Positions 7,181 to 63,926 of a DNA stretch of 64,000 nt are shown one piece after another (positions within the stretch are counted from its first letter, which is position 1; each line of letters begins with the position of its first letter). The notes under the pieces were generated by a model that was not told where the DNA came from, did no database searches, and worked only from the letters and a program-made list of their open reading frames with translations. The position numbers and the translations under genes are program-made. The DNA is from Aureococcus anophagefferens (Eukaryota > Sar > Pelagophyceae > Pelagomonadales > Pelagomonadaceae), in the NCBI RefSeq assembly GCF_000186865.1, contig NW_008705570.1, positions 323,261 to 387,260 on the forward strand, read 5' to 3'.

Positions 7181-8011
7181 TTAAATGCGGATGGTTGGCA
7201 GGTACTCGGGGTCGCGATCGGAGCGCCAGTACCTTATGACGTGCGTGAACACGTCTTCGGGAACGTGCACGAAGAGGCGCTCGTGGAGGCGGTCGCTCGA
7301 AGGTGCGAGCGCGCGGCCGCGTTCGCGCAGCGACGGGAGTGCTCTGCGAAATTTCAGGAGCTGAGCGCGGGGCACGTCTGCGTACGGCCGCCAGCCGCCC
7401 GCCGCGCGGACCTCGGCGAGAAGCGCAGCCACCACCGTGTTGCCTCTTCTATTCGCCGTGGCCTCGGGGTCTTCCCCGTGGAAGAGATCCCGCGCGTCAA
7501 GTGACGCGCCGCGGCTTAGGTAAAGCCGCGCCAATGGCAGCCCAACGGCAGTGACCCCCATCATGGCAGCCCAAATGAGCGGCGTGCGCTCGGCGTGATC
7601 ACGCGCGTCGACTTGCGCGCCTCCATAGAGAAGGAGCGCCGCTACATAGCTGTTCGGCGTTTGACGCAGGAGCGTAGAACGCCGCCCCGAAATGGTTTCG
7701 ACTGTTTCCGCGTTGGTATCAGCGCCTTGTTCGATGAGCCACTTGATTACCGAGAGCCATGCGTGTTGGAGCGCAAACTCCAGAGGAGTGAACATCGCGC
7801 CAGCATGACCAAGTCCCGGAGCGCCCCGATGCAGCCCCTCGTCGAAATTGTAGCGCGTCGCGAAGCTGCGGGGAGCGCCGCCGTCAGGAGCCCACGGTGC
7901 GTACCAATGTTTCACGGCGCACAGGAATGTCTCCTCTCTTTTTGGGGGTTTGTACACGCCCATTGGGGGGCGCATTGCTAGCGTAGCGGCACCCCAATAG
8001 TGAGCAGCCAT
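7181..8011 (-). CDS. Ankyrin-repeat protein with conserved C-terminal module (copy 1)
   Basis: The protein is 276 aa, with ATG at 8009-8011 (MAAHYWGAATLAM) and stop TAA at 7181. Ankyrin units cover residues ~60-190 (TPLEFALQHAWLSVIKWLIE, RTPLIWAAMMGVTAVGLP). A tail follows that is shared with the gene at 44113-45000: LLAEVRAAGGWRPY, then P-R-x-x-L-x-x-x-R-x-L-x-x-R-G-R-A, then VPEDVFTHVIRYWRSDRD. In copy 2 the equivalents are LLADVRRAGGWAKY and LPNEVFWHILRFWRSSRE. The base composition is visibly lower in GC than the flanking genes. Function is unknown; ankyrin repeats normally bind protein partners. It is divergent from the phosphatase gene at 8180. Confidence 0.8.
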   Translation of the reverse strand: MAAHYWGAATLAMRPPMGVYKPPKREETFLCAVKHWYAPWAPDGGAPRSFATRYNFDEGLHRGAPGLGHAGAMFTPLEFALQHAWLSVIKWLIEQGADTNAETVETISGRRSTLLRQTPNSYVAALLLYGGAQVDARDHAERTPLIWAAMMGVTAVGLPLARLYLSRGASLDARDLFHGEDPEATANRRGNTVVAALLAEVRAAGGWRPYADVPRAQLLKFRRALPSLRERGRALAPSSDRLHERLFVHVPEDVFTHVIRYWRSDRDPEYLPTIRI

Positions 8012-61566: not shown

Positions 61567-62820
61567 CTACTCGAGGACGTCGGCGATGGCCGTGGCGAGC
61601 TGGTCGACGTTCTTCGTGTTGATGCCGGCCATGGAGATGCGGCCCGACTCGAGCATGTAGACGTGGTGCTTCTCGCGGATCTTGAGGACCTCGGACTTGG
61701 TCATGCCCGTGTAGGAGAACATGCCGATCTGCGACGTGATGTGGCTCCAGTCGCGGCCCGTGTCCAGCGAGTCGAGCTTGGCCCGGAGCGCCGTGCGCAT
61801 GTCGCCGATGCGGCTCGACATGACCTTGAGCGTGTCGAGCCACGCGGCCTTGAGGTCCGGGTCGTCGAGGACCGCGGCGACGACGCGCGCGCCGAAGGCC
61901 GGCGGGTTCGAGTACATGGCGCGCGCGACCTTTTTCAGGTGGCCCCGCACGGCGTCGGCCTCGTGGGGCGACGCGACGGTCGCGTGGACGGCGCCCGTGC
62001 GCTCGCTGTAGAGCCCGAAGTTCTTCGAGAAGGACACGCACGCCCACGGCGCCAAGCCCTGCTGCAAAAAGTAGCGGAAGGGCCACGCGTCGGCGTCCAG
62101 ATCGCCCGTCGCGAAGCCGAGGTAGGCCGAGTCGAAGAGCGGGAACAGACCCTTGCGCTTGACCAACGCCGCGAGCTCCTTCCACTGGTCGCGAGATGGG
62201 TCGACGCCCGAAGGGTTGTGCGCGCAGAGATGCAGCAACACCACGGACCCCTCCGGCGCCGCCTCGAGGTCCGCCAACAAACTCGACCACTCCAACCGCA
62301 GCCCCGCCTTGTCGAGGTAGGTGTAGGGCCGCGAGTCGGCCCAGCCCGCGTCCTTGAAAATGTTCCAGTGGTTGCTCCACGTGACGGCGGGGATGTACGC
62401 GGTCCGCGGGCCCGGGTAGTGGCGGTTCAGGAACTCCATGGCGAGGCGTAACGCGCCCGTGCCGCTCAACGCCTGCACGGTGACGACGTCGTGGTTCGCC
62501 TCCTCGGGGCCGTAGAGCAGGCCCTGCGCGAGCTTGTTGTAGCGCTCGAAGCCGTCGATGCTCAGGTACTCGTGCGTCGTCGTGCCGTTGGGGCCGAAGA
62601 GCCTCTCGCGCGCGGCCTCGACGGGCGGCAGGACCCAGGGGTTGCCGTCGTCGTCGCGGTAGGCGCCCACGCTCAGCCCGATCTTCGTCGGCGTGTCGTC
62701 GGCGACGAACTGGGCCTTGATGCCCAGCACCGGGTCCGCCGGCGGCACGGCGACGTCGCCCCAGCGGCTGATGCACTCCTGGGCCGTCGCGAGCGACGCG
62801 AAGTATGCGAGTTTCATCAT
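61567..62820 (-). CDS. Aspartate aminotransferase (class I, PLP-dependent)
   Basis: The protein is 417 aa, ATG 62820 (a second ATG follows directly). It interconverts aspartate plus 2-oxoglutarate with oxaloacetate plus glutamate. Family motifs are IGLSVGAYRDDDGNPWVLPP, VQALSGTGALRLAMEFL, PAVTWSNHWNIFKDAG (Trp140 equivalent), LLHLCAHNPSGVDPSRDQW (Asn194 equivalent), FPLFDSAYLGFATGDLD (Asp and Tyr contacts) and CVSFSKNFGLYSERTGAV, with the PLP lysine in SFSKNFGLYSER. GRISMAGIN near the C-terminus supplies the carboxylate-binding Arg. The N-terminus (MMKLAYFASLATAQE) is hydrophobic and could be a weak secretory or plastid-directing signal. It shares a 114-bp divergent promoter with the GILT-like gene. 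Confidence 0.93.
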   Translation of the reverse strand: MMKLAYFASLATAQECISRWGDVAVPPADPVLGIKAQFVADDTPTKIGLSVGAYRDDDGNPWVLPPVEAARERLFGPNGTTTHEYLSIDGFERYNKLAQGLLYGPEEANHDVVTVQALSGTGALRLAMEFLNRHYPGPRTAYIPAVTWSNHWNIFKDAGWADSRPYTYLDKAGLRLEWSSLLADLEAAPEGSVVLLHLCAHNPSGVDPSRDQWKELAALVKRKGLFPLFDSAYLGFATGDLDADAWPFRYFLQQGLAPWACVSFSKNFGLYSERTGAVHATVASPHEADAVRGHLKKVARAMYSNPPAFGARVVAAVLDDPDLKAAWLDTLKVMSSRIGDMRTALRAKLDSLDTGRDWSHITSQIGMFSYTGMTKSEVLKIREKHHVYMLESGRISMAGINTKNVDQLATAIADVLE

Positions 62821-62934
62821 CGTTGTCGTGCTGCACGCTGAGGACGGCGAGCAGAACTGCAATGTTGCGGCATTGAATGCCCCCTCGCAATATCGAGTGC
62901 GGCGCAAGCTCCGGGGCTGCCCATCTCGAGCAGC

Positions 62935-63792
62935 ATGCAGGGCGGATACGAGGCCGTGGACTCGCCGCGGGCGGCGTTCCGCTCGCGGTCGCGCGTCGTC
63001 GGCGCCGCGACCTTCCTCTTCGCCGCCGGCGCCCTGGCCCACCTCGGGCGCACGGCCCAGCGGCCCGGCGCCGCGGAGCTCCTGGACGAGGTCGCGGCGT
63101 CGTCGGGGAAGCCCACGGTGCACGCCTACGCCGACGCCCTGTGATCCGACTGCCGGAGGCACGCGCTCACGCTCCACGAACTCATGTTGAGCAAGAGCGA
63201 CGTCCTCGACGCCATCGATCTGAAGATCGACTACATCGGCGCCGCCGCCTCCGTCGAGGAGCACGGCATCACGCTCATCCCCGTGAACGAGTACATGCTC
63301 TGCGCCGAGGAGCTCCTGGACCTGCCCCAGAGCGAGTGGTGGCCCTTCACGCACTGCGCCTTCGAGATCCAGAAGTGCATGAACTACGTTTCTCGCGAGG
63401 AGGCGGGGATGACGTCGTGCGACGAGGCCGACTCGGGCTCCGACGACGCCATGGCCCTCGCGGGCACGGAGCGCGACCTGAGCACGTGCACGTGCACGCT
63501 CGAGGGCGTCGTCGAGTACTGCGCCGAGACCCACACGTCGACGACCCTCGCCAAGCTCGCGACGTGCAAGGACTCCGACGAGGCGTCGAAGCTCTTCAAG
63601 ACGTCCAACGCCGTCGCCGACGCCATCAACTCGGGCCACCCGCTCTGGGTCAAGATCAACGGCGTCGAGTACGCCGGGCCGTCGGACCCGGACGAGACGA
63701 CGGCGACGATGGACGCGTGGGCGGAGCAGGTGCTCAACGTCACGTGCCAGAGCCTCGGGTCCGCCGTGAGCTCCTGCGCGCCCTACGTCTAG
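62935..63792 (+). CDS. GILT-family thiol reductase, candidate selenoprotein (UxxC)
   Basis: ATG 62935 begins a single frame to TAG 63790-63792 (285 aa), interrupted only by TGA at 63142-63144. Around it the translation is PTVHAYADAL-(TGA)-SDCRRH. This aligns with the GILT active site, where family members have an aromatic residue, E-A/S-L and then C-x2-C. Sec at position 70 would replace the first cysteine, giving U-x2-C with Cys73. Downstream GILT features agree: LKIDYIGAA, WWPFTHCAFEIQKCMNYV, CTLEGVVEYC and HPLWVKINGVEYAG. A signal anchor lies at residues 22-42 (VVGAATFLFAAGALAHLG). A SECIS-like hairpin follows at 63849-63926. GILT enzymes reduce disulfides in lysosome-like compartments. 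The alternative, a stop and two separate ORFs, explains neither the shared frame nor the homology. Confidence 0.8.
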
Positions 63793-63848
63793 GCGCGCGC
63801 CCGCCGCGTCCCCGGCCGCCGGGCCAAGCGGGCGCGGGGCGACGGCGA

Positions 63849-63926
63849 CGCGCGGCGCCGCCGACATGACGGACCGCGCGGGAGCTCCCGGCTTCCCGCG
63901 CGGTCCCGACCCGGCGCGCCGCGCGG
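63849..63926 (+). promoter_or_regulatory. Candidate SECIS element in the 3' UTR
   Basis: The hairpin starts with ATGA at 63866-63869. A perfect 13-bp stem follows, GGACCGCGCGGGA (63871-63883) with TCCCGCGCGGTCC (63894-63906), with a 10-nt loop GCTCCCGGCT, then GA at 63908-63909. ATGA facing GA forms the non-Watson-Crick quartet of eukaryotic SECIS. The outer arms (GCGCGGCGCCG and CGGCGCGCCGCGC) can pair as the lower helix. The loop has CCC rather than the usual AA, as in some CC-type elements. Confidence 0.7.

Follow-up and report, generated by a model that had tools for sequence, protein, structure and literature searches.

A probable selenocysteine-containing GILT-like thiol oxidoreductase gene with its own SECIS-like hairpin in Aureococcus anophagefferens

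Introduction

Selenocysteine (Sec)-containing GILT proteins have been in the literature since 2008, when GILT was described from the Global Ocean Sampling data as a new eukaryotic selenoprotein family comprising three sequences of unknown organism, one of which had a predicted eukaryotic selenocysteine insertion sequence (SECIS) in its 3'-untranslated region (PMC2398784). In the pelagophyte Aureococcus anophagefferens, 59 selenoproteins have been predicted, 35 of which change significantly after virus infection, and the legend of Figure 6 in that report lists a "GILT superfamily protein" among those 35 (PMC5917014). Two of 56 putative Aureococcus selenoproteins have been detected by mass spectrometry, without selenopeptides, in a study whose available part does not mention GILT (PMC3237563). 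Here we describe a gene in a 64,000-nucleotide stretch of the A. anophagefferens genome (the window; G000:C10:323261-387260, from a genome of 49 Mb in 86 contigs) that very probably specifies a thiol oxidoreductase of the secretory pathway, a member of the GILT superfamily in which the first active-site Cys is replaced by Sec through a SECIS hairpin. The gene would resemble the Global Ocean Sampling family in having Sec within a GILT-type thiol reductase, with a eukaryotic SECIS predicted for one of those sequences; they are metagenomic reads, whereas the gene described here belongs to the genome of a known organism, and the likeness is one of description, not of alignment (PMC2398784).

Results

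A preliminary description of the window had proposed one frame from 62935 to 63792 broken only by a TGA at 63142, and re-reading bore this out: the translation runs for 285 residues to a TAG stop with this single in-frame TGA as residue 70, in the context DAL-U-SDC (Table 1). A genome search recovered four copies of the gene, namely the window copy (C10), C19 (L002/L006), C2 (L004/L008) and C14 (L003/L007). The codon at the Sec site is TGA in the first three (DALUSDC, DAMUPDC and DCLUPDC, respectively) and AGC, coding for Ser, in C14 (SALSPDC), and RRHA comes next in all four. Furthermore, the copies keep register on both sides of the site across 46 codons, and each is extended at the N-terminus by a segment that includes a hydrophobic stretch, as judged by eye; when their codons were compared, synonymous changes were not clearly in excess in the part immediately before the TGA.

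Eukaryotic SECIS elements consist of an AUGA/GA quartet, a helix II of about 13 bp, a helix I beneath it and an apical loop that usually carries AA. The preliminary description had placed such a quartet around a perfect 13-bp stem about 70 bp past the stop, and it is present there, with 73 nt between the TAG stop and the ATGA. Helix II is a perfect 13 bp (63871-63883/63894-63906) closed by a 10-nt loop (63884-63893), and the predicted fold has a helix I of 13 bp with one bulge (z -4.77; 0 of 200 shuffles equally stable), so that quartet, helix II and helix I are all found and only the apical AA is absent. In a scan of both strands of the window for [AG]TGA...GA sites, this hairpin had the lowest energy (-32.1 kcal/mol) and was the only site at or below -30; 28 sites reached -15 kcal/mol or lower, nine of which, this element included, had the strict form [AG]TGAC...[CT]GA. 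Downstream of the three TGA copies, ATGAC...[CT]GA hairpins begin at 74, 147 and 95 nt from the stop, and a scan 3' of the Ser copy found no SECIS-like hairpin. The lower stem is also predicted in the folds of the C19 and C2 elements (z -4.2 for both) and in that of a further GILT gene of this genome, C6, described below (z -4.0).

Table 1. Features of the GILT-like locus and its upstream neighbour (positions in the window)
Feature	Position	Strand	Remarks
Probable GILT-like selenoprotein gene	62935..63792	+	285 residues if UGA is Sec; TAG stop; aligned with three paralogues
Probable signal anchor: hydrophobic residues 21-37 near the N-terminus	62995..63045	+	Translation judged by eye
In-frame TGA, residue 70, first UxxC position (U-S-D-C)	63142..63144	+	C19 and C2 also TGA; C14 AGC (Ser)
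Codon for residue 73, the Cys of UxxC	63151..63153	+	Kept in all four paralogues and in C6 GILT
SECIS-like element	63850..63924	+	Helix I 63850-63863/63912-63924; ATGAC 63866-63870; CGAC 63907-63910
Class I/II aminotransferase, upstream, divergent from the GILT-like gene (context only)	61570..62820	-	PF00155, 247.7 bits

The association between hairpin and TGA was then followed in controls, namely loci that this genome yielded to searches for the Sep15/SelM, Rdx, GPx and MsrA families, using a strict rule by which a [AG]TGAC...[CT]GA hairpin of -15 kcal/mol or lower had to lie within 1500 nt past the match, in correctly oriented loci. Such a hairpin was found in 16 of 16 TGA loci (12/12 controls and the four of GILT type) versus 2 of 19 loci without a TGA in the match; for the controls alone the figures are 12/12 versus 2/18 (Fisher p 1e-6), p-values that are optimistic because the rule was framed after some of the elements had already been seen. 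The three minus-strand TGA loci L011, L016 and L020, which were read in the correct orientation only after the rule had been set, all fit it, although a covariance model (see below) had already listed a minus-strand match in each. The hairpin lies 3' of the frame's stop in 15 of the 16 TGA loci and 5' of it in L039. One of the two exceptions without a TGA in the match, L024, has a weak hairpin (-18.5 kcal/mol) 1.15 kb away. The other, the Rdx (SelW/T-like) locus L017 (G000:C65:32283-32447, minus strand), has a hairpin of -29.8 kcal/mol and the sequence QYCGG-TGA-GYKK in another exon, and is therefore most likely a selenoprotein gene itself. Two loci, L009 (C6 GILT) and L023 (C60 GPx), both with a hairpin, were removed from the no-TGA list as parts of TGA genes already counted, and one MsrA match without a locus was left out of the counts. 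Among the 19 no-TGA loci, L035 and L037 are fragments of a single gene, and the matches of at least L013, L017, L018, L038 and L040 are confined to later parts of the family profile, so that the lack of a TGA in the match is no proof of a Cys gene.

The machinery for decoding UGA as Sec is also represented in the genome, by one tRNA-Sec gene (C12:1212569-1212654; 73.9 bits, gathering cut-off 47), which ARAGORN independently called as tRNA-SeC with anticodon tca, and by 12 further loci from selenoprotein families that carry a TGA. The proposal that the window holds a selenoprotein gene with its own SECIS is thus strongly supported by the hairpin in 3/3 TGA paralogues and its absence from the Ser one, by the 12/12 TGA controls and by the tRNA-Sec gene.

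Regarding the family, a six-frame search of the genome with PF03227 gave at least one locus, C6 GILT (C6:549918-550286), with 56.3 bits. It is itself a candidate selenoprotein gene (L010 1435-2310), since its frame contains a TGA (EAL-U-PGC) and a strong SECIS-like hairpin lies 39 nt past its stop. This protein matches mouse GILT (PDB 6nwx) with an E-value of 1.1e-9 across three stretches, and the stretch bearing the motif, which scores 11.0 bits alone, sets the mouse Cys opposite U. When the profile of the four copies was aligned to the C6 protein with hhalign (E 6.5e-7, probability 92), UxxC fell on UxxC, EWWPFTHC opposite NWWPFVYC and LWVKINGVEY opposite PWVVVDGTPL. U70 therefore stands opposite the U of C6 GILT, itself opposite the Cys of mouse GILT; the preliminary description had placed the TGA at the first Cys of the GILT CxxC motif and had called the downstream WWPFTHC and WVKINGVEY blocks GILT-like. 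C6 GILT shares with the window gene the UxxC motif (UPGC), the hairpin and the WWPF..C block, and differs from the window family in clearly passing PF03227 and in keeping a QHS block. The C19 copy, 51% identical to the window protein, scores 23.9 bits for PF03227 against a cut-off of 22.4, and C2 and C14 (15.2 and 15.4 bits) fall under the cut-off with GILT still the best family for both.

In addition, the structure was predicted twice. The first model was poor (predicted local distance difference test score, pLDDT, 50.8), with C6 GILT not in its alignment, and the second, built from 12 sequences, was good. Mouse GILT was the best structural match of both, at low confidence for the model without C6 GILT, and the predicted structure has a thioredoxin-like domain whose first helix opens with UxxC, together with a helical insert, as in the GILT fold. 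By sequence the mouse protein is distant: it has Cys for Sec, the identity is 16%, and the window-family profile (A3) does not retrieve 6nwx at E <= 10. The "GILT superfamily protein" of the virus infection study shares organism and family label with the window gene, is known by that label alone, and may be C6 GILT, the window gene or one of its paralogues (PMC5917014).

A profile search for relatives scored 8000 candidates and gave nine proteins at E <= 0.01, all of which begin 8 or 14 residues past the Sec site, so that no residue is visible there in any of them; P0002, P0004-P0006, P0008 and P0009 are environmental. Accordingly limited, no Cys form of the close subfamily was seen among these nine, and no relative was found in the viral contigs searched. 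The truncated starts of these gene models would fit a TGA in the database relatives too. For the window gene, the deposited entry is a 202-aa "hypothetical protein [Aureococcus anophagefferens]" (P0001) that equals residues 84-285 with one difference (E119K); it starts 3' of the TGA and hence is devoid of the redox motif. This Aureococcus entry accords with the pelagophyte source implied by the preliminary description.

The open frame 62935-63792 is weak proof by itself, since at 72% G+C a 330-aa frame (62877-63869, plus strand) also overlaps it. The case goes beyond chance through two things: protein conservation that flanks the TGA on either side, and the hairpin that follows both other TGA paralogues.

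Discussion

Several observations weigh against a GILT-type selenoprotein and have to be set beside the evidence above. Searched alone, the window protein gives nothing for PF03227 at E <= 10, a search of PDB sequences with the profile of the four copies retrieved no GILT, and DsbA-like folds score close behind GILT in the structural comparison. CQHGxxEC is the signature of classical GILT, and in the alignment its QHG block is absent from all four copies and partial in C6 GILT (YQHSPSEG). Concerning the SECIS, the apical loop has CCC instead of AA, though an internal AA is likewise missing from 6 of 9 control elements, and an Rfam search of the window reported none; Rfam was also blank for SECIS on 9/9 control loci given to it (of 12), and is therefore uninformative as a SECIS detector here. 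The covariance model, trained on eight control elements with their loops trimmed and for this reason not used as main evidence, put the window element at the top of the window but with just 21.0 bits (E 0.035) against 20.4 for the next site, scored an unrelated site in L015 higher (22.0 bits), gave the C2 element 15.5 bits and did not list that of C19. Additionally, the tRNA-Sec model has matches at E <= 0.001 in each of the 14 control genomes, in 5 of them over the cut-off, and the search for relatives was capped at 8000 scored candidates, with versions of the window gene (P0001, P0003) and of the C2 gene (P0005, P0007) among its nine results.

The GILT assignment of the preliminary description is supported by the Pfam score of C19, the profile match to C6 and the structural match to mouse GILT, although the window protein taken alone stays under the Pfam threshold. 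That the gene encodes a selenoprotein of another thioredoxin-fold family, DsbA- or PDI-like, is in our view unlikely: the closeness of DsbA-like folds and the missing Pfam match would suit it, but C19 lies over the GILT cut-off, GILT is the best, if sub-threshold, family of C2 and C14, the profile matches C6 GILT, and mouse GILT is the best structural match of two models, one of which was made without C6 GILT in its alignment, albeit with low confidence. Given the missing CQHGxxEC we use the label "GILT-like, GILT superfamily" and not classical GILT.

Even less probable is that the TGA is a true stop and that a separate downstream protein starts from a later Met, as in the deposited model of 202 aa from 63184. 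The databases hold exactly such a truncated model (P0001), but this reading loses the first strand together with the redox motif, parts that all four copies share and that, in the Ser copy, run on without a break into the remainder of the protein, and it leaves unexplained why a hairpin follows every TGA copy and none follows the Ser copy. A short intron removing the TGA is scarcely credible, for although a check of 200 nt on each side of the TGA found an in-phase GTG...CAG pair of 213 nt (donor 24 nt before and acceptor 188 nt after the T of the TGA), its use would drop residues 62-132 and with them the first strand, UxxC and the next helix and strand, all of which the other copies preserve, no stop interrupts this region in the Ser copy, and the deposited models retain residues 84-132.

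A GILT-like selenoprotein thus remains the reading that we favour, and the anatomy of the locus together with the hairpin-TGA association in the genome suggests how it would work. The 3' hairpin would act as the SECIS, recruiting SBP2 and EFSec-tRNA[Sec], and the UGA at 63142 would be decoded as Sec instead of terminating translation. The product probably enters the secretory or vacuolar lumen through its N-terminal signal anchor, where the Sec-Cys pair of UxxC would exchange disulfides, probably by reduction as in GILT, judging from the family. The deposited gene model, which lacks the active site, is corrected here. If the proposed reading is true, part of the secretory redox chemistry of this bloom-forming alga depends on selenium, which would agree with the large selenoproteome already published for it.

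The copies may also inform on how Sec is lost. There is about an even chance that they represent an expanded pelagophyte GILT-like subfamily without CQHG and separate from classical GILT, with at least three Sec copies each with a SECIS and no Cys form seen, in which the Ser copy without SECIS is a natural experiment on Sec loss inside one genome and possibly a monothiol or non-reductase GILT. In the C14 copy (G000:C14:122350-122952), the change from Sec to Ser coincides with the absence of the SECIS-like hairpin, and AGC can be reached from TGA by one-base steps via the Cys codon TGC. With Ser at this site a Sec-Cys pair is impossible, and this protein may have a monothiol or binding-only role.

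In this genome, one simple hairpin rule sorts TGA selenoprotein loci from most non-TGA homologues, whereas Rfam missed every G+C-rich element on which it was tried, and a lineage-specific SECIS model could uncover more of the Aureococcus selenoproteome. The SECIS-like elements of the L011-L039 controls often read ATGACGG...CC-CGA, often without the apical AA. L017 was revealed by its hairpin although its matched exon has no TGA. In L039 (G000:C38:206441-206803), an MsrA-like TGA gene, the hairpin before the stop points to an unrecognised intron or to a hairpin within the coding part. Lastly, other-register open frames overlap the GILT-like gene as a result of the 72% G+C; besides the 330-aa frame there is one of 766 aa (61567-63867, minus strand), whose downstream part contains the real aminotransferase.
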